44,682 bases of DNA from Candidatus Bathyarchaeia archaeon (GTDB lineage Archaea > Thermoproteota > Bathyarchaeia > Bathyarchaeales > Bathycorpusculaceae), in the NCBI GenBank assembly GCA_030019335.1, contig JASEET010000009.1:1-44682 (forward strand), written 5' to 3'. Below, piece by piece: positions 25,423 to 44,682 of the stretch. The position numbers and the translations under genes were made by a program. The notes beneath the pieces were generated by a model. That model had not been told where the DNA came from. It did not search any database and saw only the letters and a list, made by a program, of their open reading frames with translations. Every line of letters begins with the position of its first letter. Within the stretch, counting starts at the first letter, position 1.

Positions 25423-25445
25423 ATTCATGCATATGCGCTGGTTTT

Positions 25446-28634: not shown

Positions 28635-28664
28635 GGACGGCTGGTAGTGAACACATGAAGGAGA

Positions 28665-29051: not shown

Positions 29052-29145
29052 GGCTTGCACGCACACACAAACTACAAAATAACTATAGAAGATTTTTCGT
29101 AAGTTTTATTTGCAGAACAGATTATTTAGGGTTTGGAGAAAGGAA

Positions 29146-29289
29146 ATGTTAACGAAAGCTGTTTCTGGAATGATGCTGGCACTGCTTTTAGCTTGCGTAT
29201 TAACATTTGCGTTTAACATTCAACCAGCCAAGTCACCGTATACGCCTAAGGGGGCAAATAAGGGTGAAGTGGCGGTCAAGAATCGTTAA
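29146..29289 (+). pseudogene. Signal-peptide remnant of a NosD-type surface protein
   Basis: 47 residues: KAVSGMMLALLLACVLTFAF, then NIQPAKSP. This closely parallels the signal peptide of the NosD-like protein at 3256 (KVSGIMLTLLFIGMLALAF, DIQPVKAEP). After it the homology stops and the frame ends within 16 residues. It looks like the 5' end of a lost paralogue, now overlapping the start of the next gene. Confidence 0.6.
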
Positions 29290-29740: not shown

Positions 29741-29974
29741 TTCCGCAAAACCACAAACCTTGCGTAAAAAGAACTCTCCTTACAAAAAACTTTCTAAATT
29801 TTTCCCTGTACTTTTTCTGTTATTAGGCTTATGCTTTTTGCGTATTCCATGAACGCTTGGTGTAGAACCTGGCTTTGCTATTTTTGGCGATTTCTTAAAT
29901 TAGAGTTTAATTAAAGTTTTGTTTCAGAATTTCTTTTATTTTTCTGGCTTAACATAGTTGATGGTGTTGAATGT

Positions 29975-30118
29975 TTGCCCATCTTCCAGCAGAGCGTTGG
30001 CGCTGAATTGTATGAGTGGCTTTTGAAGGAGCAGAAGAGGCGTGGGGCTCGCACAGTCCAAGATGTGATTCGCCAGATTCTGCGGGAAGCCGAAGGGGTG
30101 GCGGAGAAGCATGGTTAA
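29975..30118 (+). CDS. Small ribbon-helix-helix-like protein upstream of the portal gene
   Basis: 47 residues from TTG 29975: MPIFQQSVGAELYEWLLKEQ then KRRGARTVQDVIRQILREAE. The strand-helix-helix pattern and the RTVQDVIRQIL helix resemble CopG/ribbon-helix-helix DNA-binding proteins. It overlaps the next start by 8 bases. The 230 bases before it (29741-29974) hold no recognisable gene. The start codon is weakly supported. Confidence 0.35.
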   Translation: MPIFQQSVGAELYEWLLKEQKRRGARTVQDVIRQILREAEGVAEKHG

Positions 30119-30407
30119 TTTTGCGGTTGCCCTAAAGAAGGTTTTGAAAAGGTTTGCTGTTGCTTCGACGCCTCGGACGCAGGCTGAGATTCAACGGTTT
30201 TACACGGGTTTTGCTGCTGAGTTTGGGCAGCCCATAACCAATGAGAAAATAACTGAAGCTTTGAGGCGCATACTCATAGCCCACCGCATAGTTTTTGCCG
30301 TGGCTCATGATGTGTTTGACAATTGGTTTGAGGTTGAACCCCTCGAGGAGGGTGTTGACAAGGAAAAGTTCGACGAGGCTGTTCAGAAAGTTTTTGTTAA
30401 TGCTTGA
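30111..30407 (+). CDS. Phage portal protein, N-terminal part (split gene)
   Basis: 98 residues. Its last two thirds (RILIAHRIVFAVAHDVFDNW, FEVEPLEEGVDKEKFDEAVQ) read like the N-terminal region of DUF1073-type portal proteins, where a conserved stretch of this type precedes the AAVFERAYGWS segment. That segment begins in the +1 frame right at the stop of this gene. The N-terminal third looks different and may derive from a separate small gene. Translated in the order given, the two pieces would rebuild one portal protein. Confidence 0.6.
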   Translation: MVNFAVALKKVLKRFAVASTPRTQAEIQRFYTGFAAEFGQPITNEKITEALRRILIAHRIVFAVAHDVFDNWFEVEPLEEGVDKEKFDEAVQKVFVNA

Positions 30408-31560
30408 CGCTAAGGATGTTTTTACGCAAGCGGCTGTTTTTGAGAGGGCTTATGGCTGGAGCATAATCGTCATAGGCTACCAGGATAAGGCTGCAACTTT
30501 AAAAGAGCCTGTTTTTATGCCTGAAAAAATCGTCAGCCTCGAGGCTTACAGCCCACAGTACATGGAAGAGCCAGAAATAGACAAGGATGAAAACAGCCCA
30601 CATTTTGGACAGCCCAAAATATACAAAATCAAAATTACGGACAGCAAAACTGTTGAAGTTCACTATAGCCGCGTCATTCACTTCGCAACCCGAAAGCTTG
30701 AGCCTGGCTATAAGGGCATGAGCGTGCTTGAGCCAATCTGGGACATGTTAACCGTCTTGTGGAACATTCTTTGGGGCATGGGACAAACCATGTACCGCTA
30801 CGGCAGCGGCTTCCCCGTCGTAACCGTCAAAGGCGCCACAAAAGAACAGATAGACCAGTACAAACGCGAATGGGGACCATTAACGGCGCAGACAAGCATG
30901 TGGGCAGACGAGAACACAACCATAGAGTTTAAGGGCTTGGCTGGAAGAGCCTTAGACCCCGAGCCCTACTACACGCCCATCATGGAAAACATAAGCGCAG
31001 GCACAAGCATTCCCATGGCTATTTTAAGGGGCGCTCAAGCTGGACAATTGGCGGGAAGCGAAGTAAACGAACGCGAATACTTCAAACTCATAAGCGACTG
31101 CCAATCTCGCTATGAACCATACATCATGGACCTAATCGACCGCTTAATGGAAACAAAACAAATTCCAAACGTGCATTACCGCATTAACTGGCTTGGCGGC
31201 TTCGAAATTAATCCACGTGACAAGGCTGCTGCAGAACTCGACAGAGTCAGAGCCTTAACGCTCATGACAAACTGGATGACCGTCAACGAAATTAGGCTGT
31301 TGGAGGGTTTGGAGCGTATTCCGGGAGGCGACGTTGTTTTAGGCTTAAATAAGCTTCAAAGCGCAGCATTTTCAAACAATGCCCATGTAACTTCAAAGAG
31401 GAAATTGCAGCTGGAATGCAGGTTCGGAAAGCCCGTTGATAAGCTCTTGGCGGACAGGATTGCCGCTGGACACAGCGTTAACAAAATCTGCAGAGATTTG
31501 GGGATAAGCACGCAGACGTTTTACAGTTGGGTTGAAGAGTATGGGTTGAAATCACACTAA
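30400..31560 (+). CDS. Phage portal protein (DUF1073/anti-CBASS-Acb1-like family), main part, with C-terminal HTH
   Basis: 386 residues from ATG 30400. The body matches DUF1073 portal proteins of tailed viruses: AAVFERAYGWSIIVIGYQ, VIHFATRKLEPGYKGMSVLE, GSGFPVVTVKGATKEQIDQY, AIPMAILRGAQAGQLAGSEV-like segment, and YRINWLGGFEINPRDKAAAE. The portal forms the DNA gate of the capsid. The last 55 residues (LLADRIAAGHSVNKICRDLG, ISTQTFYSWVEEYG) are a helix-turn-helix not expected in a portal, probably joined by recombination. No terminase or capsid gene is nearby. Confidence 0.8.
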   Translation: MLDAKDVFTQAAVFERAYGWSIIVIGYQDKAATLKEPVFMPEKIVSLEAYSPQYMEEPEIDKDENSPHFGQPKIYKIKITDSKTVEVHYSRVIHFATRKLEPGYKGMSVLEPIWDMLTVLWNILWGMGQTMYRYGSGFPVVTVKGATKEQIDQYKREWGPLTAQTSMWADENTTIEFKGLAGRALDPEPYYTPIMENISAGTSIPMAILRGAQAGQLAGSEVNEREYFKLISDCQSRYEPYIMDLIDRLMETKQIPNVHYRINWLGGFEINPRDKAAAELDRVRALTLMTNWMTVNEIRLLEGLERIPGGDVVLGLNKLQSAAFSNNAHVTSKRKLQLECRFGKPVDKLLADRIAAGHSVNKICRDLGISTQTFYSWVEEYGLKSH

Positions 31561-31618
31561 CATTTTGGTTAATCAAAATAATAAGTCAGCCTGTGCGCTT
31601 TTTCCATGGTGAAAGTGC

Positions 31619-31843
31619 ATGTCTGAACAGAAAGATAGGAATAATCGTTTCGGGCGAATAGCAACCAAAGGCGTCTTAGGCGGATTGTCCGGCGGCTTTC
31701 TGCTTTATCTGGCTTTTCTGTTCTTCAGAATAGCCATAAACGCCGTTGCAGGCACAGACATTGTGCCCGCATCCACGGAGCTCGGCGGCTTCGCCCTCGG
31801 ATTCGCAACAGGCGTAAGCCTCGCCTTCCCAACCAAAGAATAG
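31619..31843 (+). CDS. Small membrane protein in the viral segment
   Basis: 74 residues with two glycine-rich hydrophobic stretches (GVLGGLSGGFLLYLAFLFF and LGGFALGFATGVSLAF). Lies between the portal and the DUF2213 gene with the same orientation. A holin-like role is conceivable from size and topology but not supported by any motif. Confidence 0.5.
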   Translation: MSEQKDRNNRFGRIATKGVLGGLSGGFLLYLAFLFFRIAINAVAGTDIVPASTELGGFALGFATGVSLAFPTKE

Positions 31844-31889
31844 CCCCTAAACGTCTTTCGGCTGTTCAAATCCTTCGAGCTGGTTAAGC

Positions 31890-32978
31890 ATGATAATGTA
31901 TGCCCTAAAATCCATTGAAGCGGGAAAGTTTGAATTCAGAGAGGATGAGGAAACCCTCACCGTGCCAGCCGTCATCACGAAAGAGGATGTTTACGATTAT
32001 GACGGCATGCTTGTTTATGAGCCTGCTGAAGAAATTGAGATGGCTGCTTTCACTGCCCAGAACGCTTGGATTGTGGAAAACCACCCAGCAGAGGCTATTC
32101 TGACAAAGGCTGAGGATATAAAGGGAACAGTTTCAAAAGCGGTTTTTGAGGAAGACCGCATAAAAGCGGATTTAACCTTCTACAAAAACCGCTGCAGCCC
32201 CCAGTATTTAAGCGACATAAAGAGGGGCAAAATAAAAAGCGTTAGCATAGGCTTCTTCTGGGAGCCCGAAGCCCTCAAAGGCGAGTTCAAAGGCAAACAT
32301 TACGATTACATCATGCGAAGCATCTTCATTGACCATGTGGCTGTTGGAAGCTGGACGGGAAGATGCAGCTATCCCCTATGCGGAATAGGAATAGACGGAA
32401 AACTTAAAGGAGCAAATCCCTACCCAAACGAGCACTCATGCCGCCTAAAAAACCCAGAAACCCTTGACATGGTGGGAAGCGGAGAACGAAAACACAACGG
32501 CAAAACCTACCGCGTCATCTACGGAAAGCCAAAAGGCAAGCCCGAAGCAGGCTCTGTTGAGCAGGCCTACCGCTATCCAACTGAAACATGGAGCGAGGCT
32601 GAAGCCCGCAAGCACTGCGAAGCCCACGGTGGAACGTTTGAGCCCGCAACGGTGGAAAAGAAGGAACCAGCCCAAAAGGGAGAGGGCGAAAGGGAAAAGC
32701 TGCATGAGGCTGCAAAACAGCGAGAACAAAAATACGGCATAAAATTCCGTGAGGGAAAAGGACATTTAACTCCACCAAAGGATTATCCGCAAGAAGAAGA
32801 GGATTACGGAGACCCGGCACGGGAGCTTATGAAAAGAGCCGACTATAAAGAGCTTGAAGCAGCCCAAAGAATAGTCGAAGCAGCAAGAGAAGCCCTAGGC
32901 TGCAGGTTCATAACAGCCCTTGAACATTGGGAAATGCAAAAAACCGCCTCAAATGCACAACAGGAAGCAAAGCCCTAA
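31890..32978 (+). CDS. DUF2213 phage protein with C-terminal head-protein-associated domain
   Basis: 362 residues. Residues about 10-165 match DUF2213 phage proteins (FREDEETLTVPAVITKEDVY, WIVENHPAEAILTKAEDIKG, IKSVSIGFFWEPEALKGEF, DHVAVGSWTGRC), thought to be scaffold or prohead protease relatives. About 175-255 is the module NPYPNEHSCRLKNPETLDMV with QAYRYPTETWSEAEARKHCE and AHGGTFEPA, common in head-assembly proteins of archaeal and bacterial tailed viruses. The 3' end runs into the RadA fragment in another frame. Confidence 0.78.
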   Translation: MIMYALKSIEAGKFEFREDEETLTVPAVITKEDVYDYDGMLVYEPAEEIEMAAFTAQNAWIVENHPAEAILTKAEDIKGTVSKAVFEEDRIKADLTFYKNRCSPQYLSDIKRGKIKSVSIGFFWEPEALKGEFKGKHYDYIMRSIFIDHVAVGSWTGRCSYPLCGIGIDGKLKGANPYPNEHSCRLKNPETLDMVGSGERKHNGKTYRVIYGKPKGKPEAGSVEQAYRYPTETWSEAEARKHCEAHGGTFEPATVEKKEPAQKGEGEREKLHEAAKQREQKYGIKFREGKGHLTPPKDYPQEEEDYGDPARELMKRADYKELEAAQRIVEAAREALGCRFITALEHWEMQKTASNAQQEAKP

Positions 32979-33535
32979 ACACCCTTCTCGAAGGCGGAAT
33001 AGAAACCCAAGGCATAACAGAACTCGTAGGTCAATACGGGTCTGGAAAAACCCAAATATGTCAAACCCTGTGCGTAACAGCCCAACTTAAACCAGAAAAT
33101 GGAGGATTAGGCGGAAATGTTCTTTACTTTGACACGGAAGGAACATTCAGCTCCAACCGCGTCTACCAAATAGCAGCAGAAAACGGCTTGGACCCAGGAC
33201 AAACATTGCACAACATAGTACTTTCAAGGGTTTACACTTCAGACCACCAAATGTTCCTTTTGGACAACGCCTTCGAAAAATGCGCAGAAGAAAACATAAA
33301 ACTCGTAGTCGTAGACTCAGTCATATCACATTTCAGAGGCGAATTCCTCGGAAGAGAAACACTGGCTGACAGACAACAGAAGCTAAACCTATACATGCAC
33401 AAGCTGCTACGCCTAGCAGAAATTCTAAACCTAGCTGTCGTAGTCACAAACCAAGCACAATCAGACCCTCAACCACAATATCCGGGCTACCATGAAACCC
33501 AAGTCAGGGGAGGTTTAAATTCTCGGTTTGTGTAG
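32927..33535 (+). CDS. RadA/RadB recombinase core fragment, truncated at an att site
   Basis: 202 residues. Begins at the RecA-fold core (CTTGSKALNTLLEGGIETQG), has Walker A VGQYGSGKTQICQTL, Walker B-type IKLVVVDSVISHFRGEF and VVVTNQAQSDPQPQ, and then stops matching. The N-terminal helix-hairpin-helix domain is absent and the C-terminal end (after VVVTNQ) is replaced by PGYHETQVRGGLNSRFV, which is simply the translation of the att repeat at 33482-33529. It overlaps the DUF2213 gene by 52 bases. It is probably a non-functional piece, or at most an ATPase core. Confidence 0.8.
   Translation: MGNAKNRLKCTTGSKALNTLLEGGIETQGITELVGQYGSGKTQICQTLCVTAQLKPENGGLGGNVLYFDTEGTFSSNRVYQIAAENGLDPGQTLHNIVLSRVYTSDHQMFLLDNAFEKCAEENIKLVVVDSVISHFRGEFLGRETLADRQQKLNLYMHKLLRLAEILNLAVVVTNQAQSDPQPQYPGYHETQVRGGLNSRFV
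33482..33529 (+). repeat. att copy 2, core plus right arm
   Basis: Core CCGGGCTACCA (33482-33492) is followed by TGAAACCCAAGT and, 20 bases after the core, the arm GGTTTAAATTCTCGGTTT (33512-33529). The left side is RadA sequence, so this copy lacks the left arm. It cuts the RadA reading frame. Confidence 0.75.
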
Positions 33536-33558
33536 AATTAGGATTTGACGATTTGCTC

Positions 33559-34005
33559 TTATCTAACGCTCTTTTTTTTTTCAAAAATTAATTCTTCAAA
33601 AATTTTCCCCTTCTTCCAAAGAAGCAGATATCCAAAGAAAACCCAGACTATTAGTTGAATTGAAAAGTAGGGCACGAGGAAATATGGAACAACTTCTATC
33701 AATAACATTTCTGGGATCACCATTGCCTCCACATTTCTAGATGCCACCGATGCAGCAAACGAATGAATCGCTAATAGCAGAAATAGAGTAGGTGCCAAAC
33801 GAACTCTTCTAGCATACTTGCTAATGTCTTCATGCCGTTTTTCATAGTGTCGCAAAGTCTTAAAAGTGTAAGGAAAAAGAAACAGAATGTCCGTAAACTT
33901 CTCTCTGATAATCTTTTCATTGCAAAGAGGACAGCGTCCATTAGGTGTACGACGCAAATTATGATAGACTTTGCGCATTTTACGTGCGTAGAAGATGGCG
34001 ACCAA
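33559..34005 (-). CDS. Hypothetical membrane protein with N-terminal CPLC motif
   Basis: 148 residues (TTG 34005; ATG 33978 is an alternative start). A basic N-terminus with RTPNGRCPLCNEKIIREKF is followed by helices (PTLFLLLAIHSFAASV and PYFSIQLIVWVFFGYLLLW) and a charged tail. Only one CxxC is present, so a full zinc ribbon is doubtful. Unknown function; single cargo gene of the short module 33530-34277. Confidence 0.45.
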   Translation of the reverse strand: MVAIFYARKMRKVYHNLRRTPNGRCPLCNEKIIREKFTDILFLFPYTFKTLRHYEKRHEDISKYARRVRLAPTLFLLLAIHSFAASVASRNVEAMVIPEMLLIEVVPYFLVPYFSIQLIVWVFFGYLLLWKKGKIFEELIFEKKKSVR

Positions 34006-34401
34006 AAGGACAGGCCATATTAAAAAAAAGGGAGAATTGCAAGCAAGGAGAAAATTTCAAGCAGCAAGCCCGTGATCTCTTGTGCCACGTTGACGCCCGC
34101 CTAATAGTCTCTAAACAACCAATAGTAGTCTAGCAAATATGCTTTATGCTTTATCCGAAATACCACCGTAAAATTTGATTTTGAGGTCATTTCGTGGATA
34201 TTTTCACGAAAGAATACAAAATTGTGTTTTAACCCCCGATAATTTAAACCGATATTTGAACCAATCCCGGGCTACCACAAGATTTTCTTAAGATTTTCTA
34301 TAGTCAATTATAGAATTTAGTGGAATCTATTCGATAGAAGATTGTCTTTATGTGCTATTGCTTTATTAACTAACTACTCTAACACATGAGACCGTGCGCA
34401 C
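34006..34401. other. Gene-free stretch holding att copy 3
   Basis: No coding frame is convincing. The useful content is the att copy at 34211-34277 and an AT-rich region after it (34290-34395) that probably contains the promoter of the broken DUF4258 gene. Confidence 0.5.
34211..34277 (+). repeat. att copy 3, left arm plus core
   Basis: About 67 bases (AAAATTGTGTTTTAAC, then TTTAAACCGATATTTGAACC and core CCGGGCTACCA at 34267-34277) are nearly identical to 34985-35049. The bases TTTGAACCAATCCCGGGCTA imitate the T arm and acceptor end of tRNA-Gln. The right flank (CAAGATTTTCTTAAG) lacks the arm. Confidence 0.8.
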
Positions 34402-34679
34402 ATGTCTGTCCAGTTTAGTCGTCATGCCTTGGAGAAGATGCGTAGGAGAAACGTTAAGACTTCAGATGTATATGCCACGATAGAGTCTCCTGACGAGGTT
34501 TAGAGGATGTGGAACATGGAACGGTAGTAGCTATGAAAAAGGTCAATGCCAAATCTGTCATTCTTGCCTATAAGATGGAGGCTGGGGTAGTTAAGGTTAT
34601 AACACTCTACTACACTACTAAACTTGACAGACTCCTTAAAACAAAGACGGTGAGAGGCGCATGGAAGAGGGTAAAGTAA
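34402..34679 (+). pseudogene. DUF4258 toxin-like protein, frameshifted
   Basis: Starts SVQFSRHALEKMRRRNVKTS and VYATIESPDEV, then meets TAG. The rest continues in another frame: EDVEHGTVVAMKKVNAKSVI, LAYKMEAGVVKVITLYYTTK and RGAWKRVK, a normal DUF4258 C-terminus. DUF4258 resembles RelE-type RNases and is often paired with DUF2283, which follows here with a 19-base overlap. One indel near 34500 breaks the gene. Confidence 0.8.
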
Positions 34680-34879
34680 GAGCATGGTATGATAAATCAG
34701 TGGACATACTATACCTGCTTTTTAGAGAAGGACCTAGCCATGAAGTAATAGAGGCTGATCCTGACGTGCACCTTGAACTGGATGAAAACGGAAAAATCAT
34801 GGGTATAGAAATCTGGAACGCAAGGAAAAGCGGTCTCATAAAACAAGTGGCAAAAGCCATAACTGAAATAGCTTCATAA
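34661..34879 (+). CDS. DUF2283 protein (antitoxin-like partner of DUF4258)
   Basis: 72 residues with the DUF2283 pattern: RAWYDKSVDILYLLFREGPS, VHLELDENGKIMGIEIWNAR. DUF2283 genes usually follow DUF4258 genes and the pair is a predicted toxin-antitoxin module. The start overlaps the end of the broken DUF4258 gene. An intact antitoxin-like gene beside a broken toxin-like gene fits decay of the toxin first. Confidence 0.85.
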   Translation: MEEGKVRAWYDKSVDILYLLFREGPSHEVIEADPDVHLELDENGKIMGIEIWNARKSGLIKQVAKAITEIAS

Positions 34880-34984
34880 GAGCAAAAGCGGGTTCTAAAT
34901 TCTTAATCTTACCTGAGGGTGACTGCTTAACACTTTGCACACGAAATCTTCTTCTGAGCTTGTTTTGGAGATATTTCGCATAAA

Positions 34985-35085
34985 AGACTGAAAATTGTGC
35001 CTTAACCCCGATATTTTAAACCGATATTTGAACCTATCCCGGGCTACCAACAAACCCAAGTCTGGTCAACGTTCAAACTCTCGTT
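34985..35085 (+). repeat. att copy 4, both arms
   Basis: Left part (34985-35049) repeats 34211-34277; core CCGGGCTACCA at 35039-35049; then ACAAACCCAAGT and, 21 bases after the core, GTTCAAACTCTCGTT (35071-35085). The right flank matches that of copies 2 and 6. With copy 3 it bounds a 772-base unit holding the DUF4258/DUF2283 pair. Confidence 0.8.
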
Positions 35086-35143
35086 CTTAAAGTTGCCTAG
35101 CTTGTAGGCAAGTTCTAAATAATGATATTAGGAGAGTACTCTT

Positions 35144-35395
35144 GTGGAGAGTTGGCAACCTTTAGGGAAAGGACGAAGAACAGCTTATGTGCGTTTGAAA
35201 AGTCACGCAAAAGATATAAAAAGACACTTCAGGAATGCATCATCTTTTTTGGTTAAATGCCAGATTATTGGACCGTACGTAGAGAAAGGTGTCTTGCGTG
35301 GTTCTGTATGCCCTTGGGAAATTGGCGCGTTGGATACATATGGTTTCACTATAGTCGAGGATTTCCATGATACCTTAGAAGCAATCTGGGTCTAG
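35144..35395 (+). CDS. Hypothetical protein
   Basis: 83 residues from GTG 35144. Basic N-terminal half (GKGRRTAYVRLKSHAKDIKR) then IIGPYVEKGVLRGSVCPWEI. No family recognised. First of two genes in the module between att copies 4 and 5; the next begins 51 bases later on the same strand. Confidence 0.4.
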   Translation: MESWQPLGKGRRTAYVRLKSHAKDIKRHFRNASSFLVKCQIIGPYVEKGVLRGSVCPWEIGALDTYGFTIVEDFHDTLEAIWV

Positions 35396-35446
35396 TCATA
35401 CTATACCAAAATTTCAAAGAACTTTGCCTACAGGCCAAATATCCAA

Positions 35447-36181
35447 ATGGGGTGGGAGTACATTACAGCTAACTTCCCACGTTTCATACCACCCTCCAAG
35501 GAAGATGAAGGACTTTATGATTACGCGTGGCTGACTCTCAGCGGTTCCATGTACGAAAAGGTTTTCGCGGACAAGAGCTATCGAAAATGGATTGAGATCG
35601 CTGGAGACAGACTTGCCTGTTACATGTCGTCCATTCGTTCGGTTCGAGGGCGAGAATATTATGACCCTTGGCGGATGGTAGTGTGCTTAGCTTCAGCAGC
35701 GCAATCCTTGGAACATCTTGAATGGTTGGAAGTAGCACAAAAATTCGTTCAACAGAAGGTTATCGAAGAGCAGACGCCTTTCTCGAGCGTTGAGAAAGAA
35801 CCTCGCCATAAGGGGCCTGGGGGTCACGACTTCTTTTCCAGTAACGCAAACAAGGCACTTGCACTTTTGTCTTGCTTTCCATCCCAGACTGTCGCCACGG
35901 AAATTGCTGTGAATAAATTTCTGCCCGCAACGCCAAAAAGCTTTCTAAAGCGGCATGCAGACGAAAATGCATGGAATGCAAACGTGGCCACAGCTCTGGG
36001 AAAAAGCTACTTACTTACAGGTGAAGAAGAGTTCCTTTGCCGATACTTTTCGATAATGGATGAACTCAAGAAGAGGGCCTCTCAGAACTCATTTGCTCTC
36101 GGTCGTTGTGACGGATATCCCGTAAAAGAATCTTGGGTCACCTGTTTCTTCGCATATGCATATGCTTCTGTCATTGCTTGA
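35447..36181 (+). CDS. Hypothetical protein, mostly alpha-helical
   Basis: 244 residues. Contains DEGLYDYAWLTLSGSMYEKV, YYDPWRMVVCLASAAQSLEH, DENAWNANVATALGKSYLLT and KESWVTCFFAYAYASVIA. The repeated aromatic helical pairs suggest an alpha/alpha-barrel-like fold, but no family is recognised and no catalytic residues can be named. Second cargo gene of its module. Confidence 0.5.
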   Translation: MGWEYITANFPRFIPPSKEDEGLYDYAWLTLSGSMYEKVFADKSYRKWIEIAGDRLACYMSSIRSVRGREYYDPWRMVVCLASAAQSLEHLEWLEVAQKFVQQKVIEEQTPFSSVEKEPRHKGPGGHDFFSSNANKALALLSCFPSQTVATEIAVNKFLPATPKSFLKRHADENAWNANVATALGKSYLLTGEEEFLCRYFSIMDELKKRASQNSFALGRCDGYPVKESWVTCFFAYAYASVIA

Positions 36182-36263
36182 ATTCAATAGCTAGAAACTG
36201 ACCTCTCGGGTGAACATCGAAAACGCTACTGGAATTTCGCTGTTTTGATTGCGATTTCATAAG

Positions 36264-36370
36264 CTTTTACTCGCAAAACGATAGTGTCTGACGATGTTTG
36301 AACCGAGAGTTTGAAGTTATCCCGGGCTACTATTATACCGTGGATAGGTCGAGGTTTAAATTCTCGGTTT
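36264..36370 (+). repeat. att copy 5, both arms; inverted partner of copy 6
   Basis: Left arm AACCGAGAGTTTGAA (36301-36315), core CCGGGCTACTA (36322-36332, one mismatch), right arm GGTTTAAATTCTCGGTTT (36353-36370). The arms are inverted repeats of each other. Upstream bases TTACTCGCAAA (from about 36269) also occur, inverted, beside copy 6, so the homologous block is about 100 bases. Confidence 0.8.
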
Positions 36371-36439
36371 TTTAACTTTGCGGGCACATATTTTTAAGCG
36401 AGCATTAAGAAATGTTTTTCTTTAGAGGTGATTTATTAT

Positions 36440-37063
36440 ATGGAAAAAGCTTCATCGCTGTTAAACATCATAAAGTCTCGAAGATCTATACGACGCTTTA
36501 AGTTTGATTCGGTTCCAAGAGAATATTTGGACATGATTCTGGAAGTTGCGAGATGGGCTCCATCAGCAGGGAACTGTCAGCCATGGAGATTTATTGTCGT
36601 CTCAGAGGTGAACATCTTAGAGAAGATAGGCGAAATTTATCAGGATATGCGTGCAGGCGATATTAAAGGAGCCCCACCAAGTAGCGACTATTACAAAGCG
36701 ATGAGCGAAAGGGTTAGAACCAATTTCTATAAGAACATATTTACAACGGCGCCTCTTCTTATTGTTGTCTGTGCAGACGCTGAACAATCATTCCGTTCGA
36801 GAACTTGGGCGATGGATTGTTCAATAGCCACGCAAAACATGCTGTTAATGGCACATGCGTTGGGGCTCGGCTCGGTTATCATAGATTTTCAACGTCCAGA
36901 GCATGAAACCTTGCTGAAGAAAGTCAGAGATTTGTTGGGGGTACCTGATGGAATTAAACTTATGTTCATGCTACCCGTAGGCTACCCGGATGAAGAACCC
37001 GCTCCACCCCGTCGCATGGAGCTAAGCCAGATAGTATACCTCGAAAAATACGGTCACAAGTAA
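36440..37063 (+). CDS. Nitroreductase family FMN-dependent oxidoreductase
   Basis: 207 residues from ATG 36440, with AGAGGTGAT upstream. IIKSRRSIRRFKFDSVPREY is the FMN-phosphate-binding start, ARWAPSAGNCQPWRFIVV the family signature, and GLGSVIIDFQRPE with LMFMLPVGYPDEEPAPPRR the end. It reduces nitro, quinone or related compounds with NAD(P)H; substrate unknown. First gene after att copy 5. Confidence 0.9.
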   Translation: MEKASSLLNIIKSRRSIRRFKFDSVPREYLDMILEVARWAPSAGNCQPWRFIVVSEVNILEKIGEIYQDMRAGDIKGAPPSSDYYKAMSERVRTNFYKNIFTTAPLLIVVCADAEQSFRSRTWAMDCSIATQNMLLMAHALGLGSVIIDFQRPEHETLLKKVRDLLGVPDGIKLMFMLPVGYPDEEPAPPRRMELSQIVYLEKYGHK

Positions 37064-37214
37064 AGTGCGGAGGATAGCGCTATAACTCGAATTTAAACCC
37101 ACCATTTGATGGTTGACAGCAAATTTTTGAGGGCAAGAGAAATATGTGGTGACAGATGTCATGACATAATGTTTCTCGTTCCGCTAGAAATTCCGATAGA
37201 ATCAACATTTCGCT

Positions 37215-37682
37215 TTATTCTAACACCTTCTCGAGAAATAGGTCGTATCCCCAGGCTTTGGCGCCCTTATCAACAACTTTGTAGCCCAATTTTTTATAGA
37301 AGCTTATTGCCCAATGCGCATTCATATCTACGTAGGGGACTCTTAGCTTTTCGAACCCAAGCTTTATTGCCTCGCCCTCGATATATTTCACTAGCGATGT
37401 TCCGATTCCCTTTCTTTGATGTTCAGGCAGAACATAAACAAAGCGAACACTTCCTGAATGATCGATTTCAGTCTGTAAGGCAGCGACACCTACAGCCATG
37501 TCTTCCAGTTCATAAATATAAAAGCGCATCTCCTCAAATTTCTTCAAAATATCTTCATAAGTGAACACAGGTTCCTTAAAGTACTCTGGCGGAATGATTT
37601 TCCGGTAGGCCTCGGCATTACTTCTATTTATTACACACAAAACTTTTGAAGCATCGCTAACATTTGCTTTGCGAATACTCAT
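37215..37682 (-). CDS. GNAT N-acetyltransferase
   Basis: 155 residues. VRFVYVLPEHQRKGIGTSLV is the acetyl-CoA-binding motif and HWAISFYKKLGYKVVDKGAK the C-terminal part. Typical of RimI-like single-domain enzymes; substrate unknown. Convergent with the nitroreductase gene, in the module between att copies 5 and 6. Confidence 0.87.
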   Translation of the reverse strand: MSIRKANVSDASKVLCVINRSNAEAYRKIIPPEYFKEPVFTYEDILKKFEEMRFYIYELEDMAVGVAALQTEIDHSGSVRFVYVLPEHQRKGIGTSLVKYIEGEAIKLGFEKLRVPYVDMNAHWAISFYKKLGYKVVDKGAKAWGYDLFLEKVLE

Positions 37683-37814
37683 AATATTATAGCATAAAAG
37701 ATGTTAACTATTTATCTTTTAACGTACAAATAAAACGTGATAATGGAAATTCTAGAAAATTTCATATGTCACGACGTTTTCGCCAAAAAGCCGTAAAACA
37801 AGCTTAGTTATGGA

Positions 37815-38026
37815 TGGTGCGGGGGATTAGAAAGTATGGCAACCGTTTTCTCTGGTGCTTGTTGAGTTTGTGGTTGGCTGAAGGTTCCTGTTTAAACCTA
37901 GTCCTCTGAGACCCCGGGTTAGAGTGGACCGTAAGATGAGCGGCTACTGTAATGGTCTAAAGAGACTCGATAGGAGGTTGCCGCCTGTGATTCAGCCATC
38001 AATTGAATGGGAGGTGAATGGGAAGA
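37815..38026 (+). other. Probable left-end non-coding region of an IS110-family element
   Basis: About 200 bases without a coding frame precede the transposase start, with GC-rich patches (CTCTGAGACCCCGGG, GATAGGAGGTTGCCGCC) that can fold. IS110 elements carry such a region before the transposase, and in several it encodes the bridge RNA that pairs with target and donor. The assignment here is inferred from position. The left boundary is not defined. The remaining bases 37683-37814 show nothing. Confidence 0.4.
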
Positions 38027-38138
38027 ATGAGGTATGTAGGAATAGATGTTCACAAGAACTTCTGTCAATTCGCCATGATGGATGATACAGGGCATATAGT
38101 CAAGGAGGAAAGATTCCCTAACACAGATGAAGGCATAA
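38027..38138 (+). pseudogene. IS110-family transposase, N-terminal stump
   Basis: From ATG 38027: MRYVGIDVHKNFCQFAMMDD, then TGHIVKEERFPNTDEG. GIDVHK with the first Asp of the DEDD catalytic site is the hallmark of IS110/IS1111 transposases. Homology ends near 38138, where the reversed end of a ThiL fragment begins, so the element was cut by a deletion or insertion. Confidence 0.88.
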
Positions 38139-38925
38139 CCTTTTCCTCTCCACCGTAAAGCGCCAACTCTAATGGGTCAAGGTTATGGGTTTCAGCAAAC
38201 TTTTCAGCCTCATCGGCTATTGGAAGTTTATTAATTAAGAAGCCCACTTTGCTAGCCCTTGCAATTTCATGAAGGCTCCATGCTAAGCCATCACTTGAGT
38301 CTATGGATGCCGTAACCGCTTTTATTTGGCTTAGGGCTAAACCCTCTTTTAAACGGGCTTTTGGCATCAAAACTGATTCAACAAGCGCACGGCGAATTTT
38401 AGCTGGGGCCTCAAACCCATCAACAAGAATTTTTAACCCAGCTGCTGTTTTACCGAAAAAGCCAGTAACCGCAACAATATCTCCGTGTTTTGCCCCGCTC
38501 CGCAGCACAACCTCCGTCTTTTTGGCTATTCCAAAGAGGGAAATGCTGATTACAAGGTTTGAGGCTTCGTTTGTGTCTCCTCCAATAATGTAACCACTCA
38601 TGTTCTCAATTATGCCAATTATAGGAGTGCTTAGTTGTCTGGCGAAAGTTACAGCCTTCTTCATCACAACCTGTGAAACTTCAGATGGTATCGTGACTAT
38701 TATCACACCATCCATATCTGGAATTAGTTGCATAACGCTCAGTGGTTCATCGCCTGTTCCCGGTGGGAGATCTATAAACAGAAATTCGAGGTCTCCCCAC
38801 GTTATATCGGACAAAAACTGTTGAATGGCCTTCATTTTCAATGGACCACGCCAAATTACAGGTGTCTCATCGCCTGAAAGCAAGAAGTCCATGGATACAA
38901 CTTTAATTCCCAGAGGCCCCATCAC
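38065..38925 (-). pseudogene. Mrp/NBP35-ThiL in-frame chimera of two gene fragments
   Basis: Residues 1-110 are the middle of an Mrp/ApbC-type P-loop ATPase (GPLGIKVVSMDFLLSGDETP, FLFIDLPPGTGDEPLSVMQL, PIIGIIENMSG); the homology extends upstream to about 38964 (LQANPIGVFPV). From residue 111 it is thiamine-monophosphate kinase ThiL (GGDTNEASNLVISISLFGIA, RSGAKHGDIVAVTGFFGKTA, SIDSSDGLAWSLHEIARASK, LYGGEE). The last 24 residues read antisense through the IS110 stump. Both parents lack their ends: Walker A of Mrp and the N-terminus of ThiL are missing. No function is expected. Confidence 0.85.
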
Positions 38926-38977
38926 GGGAAATACGCCTATGGGATTAGCTTGAAGCCTTGGGCTACTGGTCTCCCGA

Positions 38978-39187
38978 ATGGGCAGGCGGAGGAAGAATAC
39001 GAGAAATCAAAGTGGGGAAAAAGGAATCTTGACGTTGTCTGTGGGCCAGTACAATATGGAAATAACCTTTCCAAACACAAACATTACCGATTTTGGAGCC
39101 CAAGTATCAGTGTCTTGCGTGCATGAAGGATCAGAAATCCATGCATCCTTTGAACTGGAAAGTCTCGAGGTAATCCCCTCAGCTTGA
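38978..39187 (+). CDS. Small hypothetical protein
   Basis: 69 residues: basic start (GRRRKNTRNQSGEKGIL), then a strand-rich part (YNMEITFPNTNITDFGAQVS, VSCVHEGSEIHASFELESLE). No family recognised. It lies between the Mrp fragment and att copy 6 and has no clear promoter. Confidence 0.35.
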   Translation: MGRRRKNTRNQSGEKGILTLSVGQYNMEITFPNTNITDFGAQVSVSCVHEGSEIHASFELESLEVIPSA

Positions 39188-39615
39188 CAAATAATCTAAC
39201 TAGCCAGCACTCACGGCACATAGCGGATCAAATCTAAAAGCTCCTGAAATTTGGCTTGTACCTGAAGCTGGAACACTGAATAAACCGTTGCCATTCTCAG
39301 GTCAGAAGAGTGTGGATTTGTTTTAGTTAGTGCGCGAACAGAAAAAAGAGGTGGACGCAGGAGACTTCGCCATTTGACCATTGATGCAAACACAATCCCA
39401 GAACCATCATTAACCCGAGAGTTCGAACGTCGTCCTTATATGGGTTTCATGGTAGCCCCGGGATAGCTTCAAACTCTCGGTTCAAACTTTTCCTGCATCC
39501 TATCAATTTGCGAGTAAGAACTAGCTCAATTGCGTTGAGAACGGCTACGTTTTACTAGTATTTTGTCTATTCACCCGAGAGCTCGAGGTTTTTCGCGATC
39601 ATGTTATAGGGTGCG
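39188..39615. other. Gene-free stretch holding att copy 6
   Basis: A 60-residue reverse frame (39211-39393) has no supporting features and was not called. The stretch contains the inverted att copy (39412-39487) and another arm-like sequence CACCCGAGAGCTCGAGG at about 39572-39588, just before the end of the HExxH gene. This marks the outer edge of the mobile region. Confidence 0.55.
39412..39520 (-). repeat. att copy 6, inverted, both arms
   Basis: On the reverse strand: left arm AACCGAGAGTTTGAA, then GCTAT, core CCGGGGCTACCA (39450-39461, one extra G), TGAAACCCA, and right arm GTTCGAACTCTCGGGTT (39412-39428). The right flank resembles copies 2 and 4, the left flank copy 5. It is the only copy in the opposite orientation. 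Confidence 0.8.
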
Positions 39616-40308
39616 CTAGTCACCTTCACTTAGTCTTTGTACTTCACGTATGAATTCAGCAATGTCATGATAATTGTTCTTATCTCGAAGATAACAGTCC
39701 CATTGTCCTTTAATTCGCTTCGCGCGCCATATCCATTCTGCAAATTGGGGTATCTCATAGTCAAAATATGATCTCCTTACTCCACATCTGAGAGCTATTT
39801 CTTCTTCAATTAGTTGTACAAAAGGGTGAGTCATGGAAGAACCTAAATTACTGTTTTGGTTAAAGATTATGTGAGTCAGTTCGTGAGCAATTGTTTCTGT
39901 GTACCCCCACCCTTTTCTTATTTTTCCCAATATGACTAACGGTAGGCTCTTAAAAGGTGTCTCAGCAAACATGTATGGCACAATGAATATGCTAACGTTA
40001 GGCGTCTTATAGAGGAATCCCGTTAAGTCTTCTATCCATACAAGAACACGTGCCTCGTTCTTCTTCCATTCTTTCTCTATGTTGGAACACATTTGATGAG
40101 CTCTGGTAATATCTTCGAAGTGTTCCCTCATTGCAAGTTGAAGTTTCTTTTTTACGCTACTTTGATTTGATGAAAATATTTTTTCCCATTCACCATATGA
40201 GAGGGCAAAATCACGGATTCCTCGCCTTTGCATTGCGTATGCAATACCAGCTTCCGTAACCTCAAAACGAATGTCTAACCGATTCCTCATCATGGGCGTC
40301 ACTCGCAT
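39616..40308 (-). CDS. HExxH zinc-metallopeptidase-like protein
   Basis: 230 residues. GWGYTETIAHELTHIIFNQN carries HExxH, with downstream Glu residues (VQLIEEEIALRCG) that could give the third ligand as in gluzincins. The N-terminal half is helical and rich in charged residues. No signal peptide, so cytosolic. It overlaps the upstream SPASM-containing frame by 10 bases, so the two were probably co-transcribed; a peptidase next to a SPASM peptide-modifying enzyme is a common layout for peptide natural-product loci. Confidence 0.72.
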   Translation of the reverse strand: MRVTPMMRNRLDIRFEVTEAGIAYAMQRRGIRDFALSYGEWEKIFSSNQSSVKKKLQLAMREHFEDITRAHQMCSNIEKEWKKNEARVLVWIEDLTGFLYKTPNVSIFIVPYMFAETPFKSLPLVILGKIRKGWGYTETIAHELTHIIFNQNSNLGSSMTHPFVQLIEEEIALRCGVRRSYFDYEIPQFAEWIWRAKRIKGQWDCYLRDKNNYHDIAEFIREVQRLSEGD

Positions 40309-41069
40309 TCAGATACCGGTGATTCTTTCTCATATTTTACATTTTCGAAGCAATGGTGAGCAACCTTGAGCAATGCATCTTTGTATAACGACTTGTAAGC
40401 CGAGCAGTACGGGTCTGGAAAAAGCAGGTTTCCATGTTTTAGGTATGCGTTTATTTTACATCCGCCACCACAAAAAAGTCGCCACATGCAACTGTTGCAT
40501 TTTGTTTTCCCTAAAGCCCAACTGCACTTCTTTCTCAAAGTTTTGGAATACAATTTCTCTAAATTGAAGTCTACCTTGGCAGCCCATTCTACGTATACCC
40601 TTGGATCAATGTAAGACTTGAGAGAAGTTCCCAAATTGTACTCTTTTGTTTTATTTGCCAGTTCTATATCAAGTTTGGTCTTATCAATTCTGTTAAGAAC
40701 AGCATCTGTTTTCTTTCCCTGTTTCCTTCTCTCTTCTAACTGAATCTCAAGTTTTTTAAGCCTAGCCTCTTTCTTAGCCAACCTTTCATTAAAATTCGCA
40801 GAAATCATTCGATGATTAGCTACCGTAGCTCCTTCTAAATTAGCCATCTTAGCCTGAAAAACCTCTACGTAGTCAGCATCCTCCTTTTTGACGCCACAGT
40901 TATCTAAGTATTTTTTTTTAACAACTTTCGTGGTTCTCCAAGTTCGGAATACTTTAGCCGTTAACCCGTTCATTTGTTCTGAAATAAACCTAGAAACTTT
41001 CTTAGAATCTAACCCTTCGAAGAGATATTCCTTACATGTTTTAGAATAGTGTTCAATGTTGCTGATCAA
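40299..41069 (-). CDS. Topoisomerase IB catalytic C-terminal part fused to a SPASM domain (fragment)
   Basis: 256 residues. Residues about 1-182 are the catalytic end of type IB topoisomerase: LTAKVFRTWRTTKVV with the catalytic Arg, a long coiled-coil linker (KKLEIQLEERRKQGKKTDAV), and LGTSLKSYIDPRVYVEWAAK with the nucleophilic Tyr, ending at KKCSWALG where topoisomerase IB normally stops. It continues in frame with KTKCNSCMWRLFCGGGCKIN and FPDPYCSAYKSL, a SPASM iron-sulfur domain from a radical SAM peptide maturase. The start is internal to the topoisomerase; the preceding part is in another frame. Confidence 0.82.
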   Translation of the reverse strand: MISNIEHYSKTCKEYLFEGLDSKKVSRFISEQMNGLTAKVFRTWRTTKVVKKKYLDNCGVKKEDADYVEVFQAKMANLEGATVANHRMISANFNERLAKKEARLKKLEIQLEERRKQGKKTDAVLNRIDKTKLDIELANKTKEYNLGTSLKSYIDPRVYVEWAAKVDFNLEKLYSKTLRKKCSWALGKTKCNSCMWRLFCGGGCKINAYLKHGNLLFPDPYCSAYKSLYKDALLKVAHHCFENVKYEKESPVSECE

Positions 41070-41733
41070 AATTGGAGGCGCATTTATGCTTTTTAACCCA
41101 TCTCACTGAATCTTTTCCTAAAAAGTCAAAATGCAAGACATTGCCGTCTATCTTGATGTGTTCTGGTCTTAAAGTTATGGCTCCAACAGTGTCTGCCTCT
41201 CCTGGGTCTTTTTCGTCGCCGACTCTTATGTTTAGGGCGTGGATGAGCCAACAAACTGTTGCTATCTTTCTTCTTTCTTCATTTTTTGATTCCAAATTTT
41301 TCATGATGTGGGCTTCAATTTTTGGGATTACTTTGCCGAGTTTTTCAGCCTTCTTAAATTTTTCCTTCTCCTTTTTCTGTTTGAGATAAGCTGAATCGGA
41401 AAACCAAACATACTTCATTTTTCCAGTAAGTTTGTCTTGCCATTTAGCTATGTACATTTTATCTGGTTCCCAAACAATGGCTTTCCATTTTCCCCTTTTC
41501 GGATGGTCGCCCCTCCCAGAGAATAAGCATGATGGCTCGGCTGTCCAGTTTGCAATTTCTATCTTTTTTCCATCAATAAAGGCGTAGCCAAACTTTTTCT
41601 TTAACGCTTCCCTTTGCGCTTTTCTTTGCTTTGCAAGTTTCTTTTTCTCTCTCTTTGTTAGACCTAGCTTCTTCTGGTTTTCCTTGTCTAAATACTCGAA
41701 AATTTCGGAAAAATCCACACCGTCAACATTCAT
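41053..41733 (-). CDS. Topoisomerase IB core, middle part (split gene)
   Basis: 226 residues. Has EPSCLFSGRGDHPKRGKWKA, the eukaryote/thaumarchaeal-type IB signature, then VWEPDKMYIAKWQDKLTGKM, CWLIHALNIRVGDEKDPGEA and HFDFLGKDSVRWVKKHK with a catalytic Arg. After that the frame changes: the next frame continues INAPPILISNIEHYSKT, so one indel near 41075 breaks the gene. Its start overlaps the end of the N-terminal piece by 4 bases. Confidence 0.83.
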   Translation of the reverse strand: MNVDGVDFSEIFEYLDKENQKKLGLTKREKKKLAKQRKAQREALKKKFGYAFIDGKKIEIANWTAEPSCLFSGRGDHPKRGKWKAIVWEPDKMYIAKWQDKLTGKMKYVWFSDSAYLKQKKEKEKFKKAEKLGKVIPKIEAHIMKNLESKNEERRKIATVCWLIHALNIRVGDEKDPGEADTVGAITLRPEHIKIDGNVLHFDFLGKDSVRWVKKHKCASNFDQQH

Positions 41734-42062
41734 GTAACTTGAGGTTCAAAACAGTTCTCTATGCTCTTTAAATGTTCAACGGAAAAACTAACTAAAAAAT
41801 CTGCAGAAAAATTTTCCAATTTTAACTGGTTTAGGAAATCTTGCATGAAATTTTTGTAAAAAACCTCATCTGGTGGAGTTGGAGAGCGCAATTTCTTTGT
41901 CCATGCCAAAGCTATCTGTTCGCTTTTCAAACCCAATTTTACAGCATGCCCATTAATTTTAATTGCGAAACCCTTATAATCGTATGGTGGAACGTAAATG
42001 CTATTATGCCTCAAAGTTTTCAACGTTTTCACACTTGCCATGTAAAGGTTTTCTTTATTCAC
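41730..42062 (-). CDS. Topoisomerase IB, N-terminal part (split gene)
   Basis: 110 residues: LKTLRHNSIYVPPYDYKGFA, IKINGHAVKLGLKSEQIALA and SPTPPDEVFYKNFMQDFLNQ are the N-terminal region of type IB topoisomerases. It ends ENCFEPQVT with TGA overlapping the ATG of the next piece. In intact relatives the chain continues straight into the FSEIFEYLDKE segment, so this is either a frameshift or a separately translated domain. Confidence 0.83.
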   Translation of the reverse strand: MNKENLYMASVKTLKTLRHNSIYVPPYDYKGFAIKINGHAVKLGLKSEQIALAWTKKLRSPTPPDEVFYKNFMQDFLNQLKLENFSADFLVSFSVEHLKSIENCFEPQVT

Positions 42063-42441
42063 TCTTTCGCTTACTTAAAAATTTCTTGTACAATTTTTCC
42101 ACGGCTTCCCTATTAACAAATCCTTTATGAGGACGAAAACCGCCAGAAAACCCAGAGGGAACGTGCAAAAGTTCATGAATCAAGGTTTTTTCCTTTTCCG
42201 CCTCAGAAAGATTATCAAACCTTTCAGAAATCACTTCAATTATGTAGGATGGTGGAAGGTTTAAAGCTTCTTGCCAAATTTTACCTAAACCATGGATGCG
42301 GGCAACCGTTTGCCTTGACTTAGAACCCTTACTCCTTACACAATAAACAAACTGGGGCACAACATTAAAAAGTTCAAGCATATCAGCAATTTCGTCAACA
42401 TGCCTCTTAATGTCAGGAGCCCTAAAATATTTTATCCGCAT
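42055..42441 (-). CDS. Putative phage-type metallopeptidase
   Basis: 128 residues. EKTLIHELLHVPSGFSGGFR carries HExxH and is followed by RPHKGFVNREAVEKLYKKFL, matching the small putative metallopeptidase family found in archaea and phages. The N-terminus is FRAPDIKRHVDEIADMLELF. It overlaps the topoisomerase N-terminal piece by 8 bases, so these genes share a transcript. Zinc-dependent; substrate unknown. Confidence 0.78.
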   Translation of the reverse strand: MRIKYFRAPDIKRHVDEIADMLELFNVVPQFVYCVRSKGSKSRQTVARIHGLGKIWQEALNLPPSYIIEVISERFDNLSEAEKEKTLIHELLHVPSGFSGGFRPHKGFVNREAVEKLYKKFLSKRKSE

Positions 42442-42530
42442 AAATGCCTTCCTCCACTCACATATGCAAGTACCAAATTTAACTTTAACTCAGTTATAAG
42501 CCCGAACAATCCAATCCAAATGAAAATTAG

Positions 42531-42605
42531 TGGACCGGGCGGGATTCGAACCCGCGGCCTCCACGATGCCAACGTGGCGATCATTCCAGACTGATCTACC
42601 GGCCC
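42531..42605 (-). tRNA. tRNA-Ala (anticodon GGC)
   Basis: On the reverse strand GGGCCGG pairs with CCGGTCC (one G-U), anticodon stem CCACG/CGTGG encloses TTGGCAT giving GGC, and the T arm is GCGGG-TTCGAAT-CCCGC. Discriminator A; CCA is not encoded, unlike tRNA-Gln in this window. No displaced 3' end of this tRNA is seen nearby. Confidence 0.95.
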
Positions 42606-42718
42606 TTGTGAGAGTAAACCGAATGAAAAGCTATTAAGTATTTTGCATGATATGAGCGGGTGAGAAGAATATTTTCTAAAATTTAGTGTTATAATGAAAA
42701 AGAGAAGTTGGAAAATGG

Positions 42719-43495
42719 TTATACGCTGTTGGCTGAAGGCATTTTTCTCTTGGTCGTTAGAAGTATTGCAATAGCTGCAACGGCGCCGACTACTGCAATA
42801 AGCACTAGAATTATTATCCATGCATCGCCTAATGTTGGACCTTGGGCTTGTAAGACGTTTATGATTGCGGTTCCTGATTTGGCTGTGTATCCATCCGCAT
42901 CTGTTACGTTAAGATATATTTCGTATGTGCCGCTGCTTGTTGGTGTAAAGGTCCAGCTGCTTGAGGTTGCGCCTGATATGGCTGTTCCATTTACGCACCA
43001 TTGGTAAGTGTATGGTGAGGCTCCGCCGCTTACGGAACCTGTTAGGCTTACTGATTGACCCATGGTTATTGATGAAGTGAGTGGTGTTATTGTTGCGCTT
43101 GGAAGCGGAATGTCTTCTCCGCGGGCGATGGCTGCGTTACATTCTTTTATTAAGGCTTTGGCTCGCCAATGATACTCAAATAGTCCAGTGCAAACCTCAA
43201 ATTTTTGCTTAGCCGCTGAATAATGTCCGTCATAGAAATACCGTAAACCTTCAAGGAATGCCTCGTCAACGGGACCACGTATGTTCTTGCTTTTCACGTT
43301 TGCTTCGCTTAAAATGCTGTTTGCAACATCGCTCTCAATTAAGAAATTAAATCCTGCAACTTGAATTCCTTCTCGCACTGCTCCCATGCTGCAGATGCCT
43401 ATGACTTCGCCTTTATCGTTTAAGCCTGGTCCACCGCTCATTCCATAAGTGAGACTGGCGCTTGTTTCAAAGCATGGGGTTTGAGTGCTTGTCAA
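42719..43495 (-). CDS. Trypsin-like serine protease, C-terminal part with Ig/PKD-like domain and membrane anchor (split gene)
   Basis: 258 residues. Contains the catalytic Ser in YGMSGGPGLNDKGEVIGICS, a helical segment (GLRYFYDGHYSAAKQKFEVC), an Ig/PKD-like domain (VSLTGSVSGGASPYTYQWCV, SGTYEIYLNVTDADGYTAKS), and a C-terminal membrane helix (IIILVLIAVVGAVAAIAILL) with basic tail. It continues the frame of the protease start at 44303 after one frameshift near 43530; the frame between reads GAFNERGQISQKRLTSTQTP. Confidence 0.8.
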   Translation of the reverse strand: MTSTQTPCFETSASLTYGMSGGPGLNDKGEVIGICSMGAVREGIQVAGFNFLIESDVANSILSEANVKSKNIRGPVDEAFLEGLRYFYDGHYSAAKQKFEVCTGLFEYHWRAKALIKECNAAIARGEDIPLPSATITPLTSSITMGQSVSLTGSVSGGASPYTYQWCVNGTAISGATSSSWTFTPTSSGTYEIYLNVTDADGYTAKSGTAIINVLQAQGPTLGDAWIIILVLIAVVGAVAAIAILLTTKRKMPSANSV

Positions 43496-43520
43496 CCGTT
43501 TTTGGCTTATCTGCCCTCTT

Positions 43521-44303
43521 TCATTGAAGGCGCCAACAGAGTTTCAACCCTAATTCCTCTGCGAAAACTGTGACGTCTGCGAATCCAAAAGAGTACACAT
43601 TGGAACCAGTTGTGACGGTGGATGAGTCGCCCATAAGCAATACTGGACAGTAGTTTGATGGCGGTTCAATTTTTAATAAGGCTATGTCTCTCTCGTAGAA
43701 TGAACTTACATCTATTATACGTGCAACCCATCCCTTGCTTTCAACTTCTGTCAGTGTCGGTCTAACCTCACCTAGAACAGTATAGATTTGCCGGAGAGAG
43801 TCTTTTATTTCTCCATAATTCATAATATAGTTCCAAAGCAGCTCTAACTCTTCAAGTGTGAAATAGTAGCCTGCCTCTTCGAGTTCTTGAACTATATTAT
43901 AGAAGGCTGTTTCTATCAAAAAATATTTCGTGTACAAATCTTGAGTTATGTCTTTGTGAGTGAAACAAAAAATCACATGCCCAGCCGTGACTATGTAACC
44001 ATCTGCACTAACAAAGAATCCTGAACCCACTGCCCCTACGCTTACGGGAACAAGGAAATATGTAGTCATGGGTTCCCAGTAAATATTGGGATAGTACACT
44101 TTGATGTTGGCGTCAATCTGCGAGTAAATAAGCACGGTGGAAGCCTCACCCAACTCAGCAATCAGTGAAGGCGAATACGAATATGTTGTAGTGGCAGCAG
44201 CATTACAGAATTGCACTTTCGCTAAGAAGTTCATGCTTGTCATCAAAAGCAGTAGCATTATTGCCTTAGTTATAGCTGATTTCTTTATTTTTATTCCCTC
44301 CAA
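43521..44303 (-). CDS. Secreted trypsin-like (HtrA/DegP-type) serine protease, N-terminal part (split gene)
   Basis: 260 residues. A signal peptide (AIMLLLLMTSMNFLAKVQFC) precedes a chymotrypsin-fold domain with His in SADGYIVTAGHVIF and Asp in SFYERDIALLKIEPP. A helical insert lies between them (LEELELLWNYIMNYGEIKD). The frame ends LGLKLCWRLQ just where the Ser-containing part should follow. Start TTG 44303 with a TATA box about 33 bases upstream. Together with the next frame it would be a cell-surface protease facing outward. Confidence 0.82.
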   Translation of the reverse strand: MEGIKIKKSAITKAIMLLLLMTSMNFLAKVQFCNAAATTTYSYSPSLIAELGEASTVLIYSQIDANIKVYYPNIYWEPMTTYFLVPVSVGAVGSGFFVSADGYIVTAGHVIFCFTHKDITQDLYTKYFLIETAFYNIVQELEEAGYYFTLEELELLWNYIMNYGEIKDSLRQIYTVLGEVRPTLTEVESKGWVARIIDVSSFYERDIALLKIEPPSNYCPVLLMGDSSTVTTGSNVYSFGFADVTVFAEELGLKLCWRLQ

Positions 44304-44329
44304 ACTTTTGTGTGGTTCATTTAAAACAA

Positions 44330-44341
44330 GTATTTATAAAT
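44330..44341 (-). promoter_or_regulatory. TATA box of the protease gene
   Basis: The reverse strand reads CTATTTATAAAT about 33 bases before TTG 44303, which fits an archaeal promoter with a very short leader and supports that start. Confidence 0.5.
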
Positions 44342-44455
44342 AGTTTATTAAGTTCAAATAAAAAGCCATATTATTAACTCTTATTCATCGAAAGTCGGAT
44401 TAGAATTAGAATAATAATCAGTTTCATAAAAATTTTGAAGAATACAAATTAACTG

Positions 44456-44682
44456 CCATGCACAGGCCAAGACACCCTAAAAATATCGTCCAGACACTAC
44501 ATGAGCCCGACACCTCAGGCGGTTGGGGGCCGCAGGCTGAACCGGTCGGCCGAAGCCTTCCGGCTTACACCCCGGCTCCATCAAACCCATCTTCTATGGG
44601 AGCCCTCGTCCCCGTTAGCCAGGCTGTTGCCAGCCCAGCGTTTTAGGGGAATGGCTGCCTATTTTCGGGAGAGGCTTCGGGC
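44456..44682. ncRNA. Candidate structured RNA, GC-rich, cut by right edge
   Basis: After AT-rich sequence the last 227 bases are GC-rich and have no good coding frame. GCCCGA-CA-CCTC (44506-44518) can pair with GAGG-CT-TCGGGC (44671-44682), a 10-bp helix with a small internal loop enclosing about 150 bases. GGCCGAAGCCTTCCGGC (from 44550) can form local hairpins. Strand is undecided. SRP RNA or RNase P RNA were considered, but their invariant core motifs were not found, so no name is given. Confidence 0.4.

Follow-up and report, generated by a model that had tools for sequence, protein, structure and literature searches.

The closest described relatives of the gene analysed here are the archaeal topoisomerases IB of the eukaryote type, such as Caldiarchaeum subterraneum TOP1 (PDB 6z01; PMC8748870) and the thaumarchaeal enzyme (PMC2621148). 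An active enzyme of this type is expected to have Topoisom_I_N, Topoisom_I and Topo_C_assoc within a single open frame. The window, the whole stretch of DNA that was analysed, is the entire contig C73 (44,682 bp) of a genome, G000, assembled in 73 contigs (1.64 Mb). It contains a gene that agrees with those enzymes in its domains, their order and its catalytic residues, but is distributed over three frames, lacks 24 residues and has a scrap of SPASM domain as its C-terminus. By its Cys motif and a score above the cut-off, that scrap is recognizable as the SPASM domain (TIGR04085) found in radical SAM peptide maturases, but nothing of such a gene is there beyond its 3′ end, and no radical SAM domain lies ahead of it. 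The locus resembles prokaryotic pseudogenes and island scraps in its homopolymer frame shifts, its deletion at short repeats, its truncated neighbours and the intact alternative gene elsewhere. It differs from the usual scraps in that the joined piece keeps the reading frame, which gives the look of a multidomain protein. The apparent topoisomerase-SPASM fusion is best read as gene decay and not as a new enzyme. Very probably it is a recently decayed (pseudo)gene of the usual type-A topoisomerase IB of the family, illegitimately joined to the 3′ end of a radical SAM/SPASM gene and a HExxH open reading frame.

The topoisomerase gene and its lesions

The features of the locus are the following (positions are those of the window):

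39616-40308, minus strand: 230-aa open reading frame with a HExxH motif, overlapping the SPASM end
40299-40511, minus strand: 3′ end of a radical SAM gene with its SPASM domain (TIGR04085), in frame with topoisomerase piece 3, radical SAM domain absent
40512-41069, minus strand: topoisomerase IB piece 3, the remaining half of Topoisom_I plus Topo_C_assoc, including the active-site Tyr
41053-41733, minus strand: topoisomerase IB piece 2, remainder of Topoisom_I_N and first half of Topoisom_I, stopping at the second frame break (about 41085)
41481-41494, minus strand: scar of a 72-bp in-frame deletion of 24 conserved residues, at imperfect 14-bp direct repeats
41730-42062, minus strand: topoisomerase IB piece 1, N-terminal part of Topoisom_I_N, stopping at the first frame break (about 41744)
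42055-42441, minus strand: intact metallopeptidase gene (PhageMetallopep), directly upstream of the topoisomerase, a neighbour conserved in relatives
42530-42605, minus strand: tRNA-Ala (GGC)
42719-44303, minus strand: trypsin-like/PKD gene split by frame breaks, intact in G034 (432 aa)
26400-44500, no strand: island of about 18 kb, from the 3′ end of the 23S rRNA (44503-44682) to a Spl-like radical SAM gene (25460-26335)

The initial annotation had described a complete topoisomerase IB in three frames from 42062 to 40299, with the catalytic Arg residues and the Tyr visible. The three minus-strand frames (42062-41730, 41733-41053 and 41069-40299, the last including the SPASM tail) agree with this, and the frame changes lie where they had been placed. 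Topoisom_I_N is recovered from pieces 1 and 2 together, Topoisom_I from pieces 2 and 3, and Topo_C_assoc from piece 3, each above its Pfam cut-off; the frame breaks fall inside domains. Motifs and alignment indicate that all the catalytic residues are kept, Arg (RVGDEKD), Lys (LGKDS), Arg (AKVFRT), His (ANH) and Tyr (SYIDPR), divided between pieces 2 and 3. The term complete does not hold, since comparison with intact orthologs reveals the loss of a conserved 24-residue block inside piece 2 and the replacement of the natural C-terminus. The missing block, EDI..N..D..P..W, belongs to the DNA-binding part and is present in the intact relatives, in 6z01 and in human TOP1. The intact orthologs carry from 3 to about 25 residues of their own after SWAL, and no SPASM; hence the final codons of the topoisomerase, and not merely its stop, have been replaced. 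Homology to topoisomerase ceases at 40512-40500.

The first frame change forms a 4-base start-stop overlap (ATGA) at 41730-41733, and opposite shifts would be needed at the two changes to restore the frame. Of 144 positions without variation among 24 intact orthologs, the window copy changes only 3, deleted ones aside, which indicates that the decay is recent.

The SPASM tail and the HExxH frame

As had been annotated, piece 3 runs in frame, after WAL, into a SPASM domain (29.4 bits in TIGR04085, above the cut-off of 27), whose homology begins at once where that of the topoisomerase stops. The radical SAM core with its CxxxCxxC motif, expected ahead of SPASM in a maturase, is absent, its place being occupied by topoisomerase sequence. 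The stop codon of the tail overlaps by ten bases the start of the frame 40308-39616, which had been taken for a HExxH peptidase gene. The overlap and the motif (HELTH) stand, while the peptidase label derives from the motif, the frame having no match in Pfam, NCBIfam or PDB. Among 257 genomes of the class a single one, G236, has a homologue (39% identity), without an adjoining SPASM; 398 sampled genomes of the phylum gave none apart from its own, and IMG/VR holds no relative, for which reason a viral nature of the frame was rejected. Both the SPASM tail and the HExxH frame are free of stop codons, which counts against decay, as does the in-frame junction with the topoisomerase, although chance would give the latter once in three.

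The fusion, which the initial annotation had proposed to look for in relatives, was not recovered there: in 60 of them no protein match spans both the topoisomerase and the SPASM part. Scans of the genome contigs for the fused protein and for HExxH gave pattern matches, none of them a confirmed relative, and a literature search gave no paper joining SPASM, radical SAM, fusion and topoisomerase. Caution is advisable, as a domain search would list this locus as a topoisomerase-SPASM fusion.

A second topoisomerase IB in the genome

Another topoisomerase IB, whose existence had been raised as a check, is encoded on contig C33 of the same genome. It is intact (598 aa) and differs from the window copy. 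In the tree it lies in a type-B clade (100/100) with the forms of G015, G020, G171, G173 and G236, and the window copy lies among the type-A forms (about 545 aa; 100/100), nearest to those of G034 and G004. The intact G034 ortholog matches 6z01 at E 1e-129. Topoisomerase IB is present in 61 of the 91 genomes of the family; among these 91, only G000 has two such genes, and copies broken by frame changes occur only in G000 and G025. The metallopeptidase gene lies directly upstream of the type-A topoisomerase in all six relatives checked, and a second, truncated copy of it is found in G000 at C33:109 kb. Judging from sequence, the topoisomerase IB work of the cell is most likely done by the type-B enzyme of C33. 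A decaying type-A gene beside an intact type-B gene in one archaeon would suggest that within the family one form may be replacing the other.

Disrupted genes also occur outside the island of the window: the DEAD-box helicase next to the intact C33 topoisomerase (locus L081, 3516-4647) appears as two open reading frames separated by about 218 bp.

A near-identical copy in a relative

Contig C59 of G025 is 99% identical to positions 41481-42542 of the window. One extra base in a homopolymer run lets it read through at the first split, and it keeps the 72 bp; the first break and the deletion are thus absent from a copy 99% identical to that of the window, and the orthologs are intact. As the difference at the split is a single homopolymer base, the ATGA overlap is an accident of that indel. 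Over about 700 bp of topoisomerase sequence, six substitutions, every one amino-acid-changing, and four indels separate the two copies, and on the metallopeptidase side there is one silent difference in 488 bp (Fisher P 0.03). Six non-synonymous changes out of six have a probability of 0.0002 if 25% are expected under purifying selection, a figure drawn from few events, among which sequence errors are possible. The substitutions and indels would fit relaxed selection, though errors in either sequence could add to the pattern.

G025:C59 is itself an imperfect witness, with several frame breaks, homopolymer indels and an N gap. At about 2535 of this locus (L031), inside the topoisomerase and 150 bp before the N gap, the match to the window rises abruptly from 77% to 98% identity, which may reflect recombination or a chimeric scaffold; in window coordinates the identity falls from 99% to 77% at about 41170.

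Origin of the joined locus

Taking into account that: (i) the gene carries two frame breaks, a deletion and a replaced end; (ii) a near-identical copy lacks the first break and the deletion; (iii) the genome has an intact second topoisomerase IB; (iv) the fusion is absent from the relatives searched, and (v) frame breaks cluster in the island, we propose the following course for the decay, which agrees with the suggestion of the initial annotation that the gene is decaying after an event that joined two loci. With the type-B enzyme present the type-A gene would be redundant and free to decay. Slippage in homopolymers would then produce the two single-base frame changes, and deletion between the short direct repeats the in-frame loss of 72 bp, leaving a product presumably without activity. 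Illegitimate recombination would have removed the last codons of the topoisomerase and joined to it the 3′ end of an unrelated radical SAM-HExxH unit. The open frame at the junction would be due to chance. The order of these events is likewise conjectural.

It is conceivable, though somewhat less probable than not, that the block of trypsin-like gene, tRNA-Ala, metallopeptidase and type-A topoisomerase was imported from a relative resembling G025 and is decaying in the island, so that it would not be the native type-A gene of the lineage. The 99% identity to G025:C59, against about 77% for core genes, argues for such an import, as does the second, truncated metallopeptidase copy on C33. However, G025:C59 is possibly a scaffold of two sources, given its identity jump and N gap, and the place of the window copy in the tree is next to G034 and G004, not clearly inside another genus. 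Import is compatible with the decay proposed above and differs from it only in the origin of the gene.

It is unlikely that the locus is an artefact, in which base errors would account for the frame changes and a chimeric contig for the contact between the topoisomerase end and an unrelated SPASM-HExxH piece. The assembly is fragmented into 73 contigs. At the two borders of a tRNA-Gln element, the ends of contigs C34 and C9 each match the window over exactly 55 bp; these overlaps offer alternative paths at that site and suggest that another element occupies it in part of the population. The matching G025 contig also has homopolymer indels and the drop in identity mentioned above, and the single-base indels of the window could be sequencing errors. 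However, the exact overlaps suggest assembly at k = 55, in which case two sequences would be misjoined only where they share about 55 bases, whereas SPASM homology starts right where that of the topoisomerase ends (40512-40500); the 72-bp deletion, moreover, sits on 14-bp repeats.

The distribution of frame breaks also speaks against an artefact. The 14 core genes of the same contig (11.9 kb) are whole open frames, and four core genes of contig C91 of G025 match in single frames, whereas in about 4.4 kb of island genes there are four or five breaks: two in the topoisomerase, one in the portal gene and at least one, two by our reading, in the trypsin-like gene. Elsewhere, the aligned sequence of G000 has four breaks over 60 kb, and that of G012/G003 none over 56 kb. 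The clustering in the island has a probability of about 1e-5 with five breaks and about 2e-4 with four, and locally low coverage could be its cause. The count over the aligned sequence missed the topoisomerase of the window, since the intact C33 copy scored higher, and this gene was compared by hand. The contig carries the only ribosomal-protein operon of the genome and is therefore not wholly foreign; contamination by the whole contig was rejected on this ground.

The other reading offered by the initial annotation was a functional split topoisomerase IB with a real SPASM fusion, in which the pieces would be translated separately through ATGA coupling, or by frameshifting, and SPASM would add an iron-sulfur module. 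The start-stop overlap, the full set of catalytic residues, the open in-frame fusion and the few changes at invariant positions would fit it. It is nevertheless highly improbable, as the overlap comes from a homopolymer indel that the 99%-identical copy reads through, the breaks lie inside domains, 24 conserved residues are missing, the 60 relatives have no matching fusion, an intact topoisomerase IB exists elsewhere in the genome and all six substitutions change amino acids. Programmed frameshifting was rejected because opposite shifts would be needed at the two breaks and the first is absent from the near-identical copy. That piece 3 and the SPASM tail are expressed as a small stand-alone protein, the C-terminal half of a topoisomerase IB with an iron-sulfur module in a role unrelated to DNA relaxation, is barely credible.

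The island and other genes of the contig

In G034 the distance from the 3′ end of the 23S rRNA to the Spl-like radical SAM gene is about 490 bp, whereas in the window it is about 18 kb (44503 to 26335). The 23S rRNA end of the window fits the archaeal model, and the lineage is probably Bathyarchaeia-like. The 18-kb stretch adjoining 23S rRNA is a variable island in which truncated, frameshifted and fused genes abound. It contains the block of trypsin-like gene, tRNA-Ala, metallopeptidase and topoisomerase, a RadA piece, a Mrp-ThiL-like fusion, viral portal genes and dispersed palindromic repeats.

The RadA/Rad51 core (32927-33535) lacks both ends and lies directly behind phage head genes. At 38065-38925 a part of a Mrp/NUBPL-type ATPase is fused in frame to an AIR-synthase-like (ThiL-like) part, with the join at 38594-38605. 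The phage portal gene (30111-31560) has a frame break and a HTH transposase-like tail, its IMG/VR relatives being up to 82% identical; a copy 94% identical adjoins the same tRNA-Gln in G025.

The dispersed palindromic repeat, of about the form CCGATATTTTAAACC...CCCGGGCTACCA...GGTTTAAATTCTCGG with a middle resembling a tRNA 3′ end, is found at 33484-33530, 34234-34277, 35006-35049, 36289-36332 and 39434-39487, and also at loci L048 and L039. Many copies exist in G000 and G025, one of them where the RadA piece is cut off. What had been taken for a helicase scrap at 36200-36370 proved to be a self-match between two of these repeats.

At 22681-25457 a tRNA-Gln is followed by an integrated element of 2.7 kb, which has a C-terminal fragment of an integrase and ends in a tRNA 3′-end repeat (CCCCGGGCTACCA). 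At 10365-10853 an ABC ATPase is joined in frame to the C-terminus of a FtsX permease. The relatives are about 1.1 kb longer at this place, which means that a deletion has affected the core of the contig as well.
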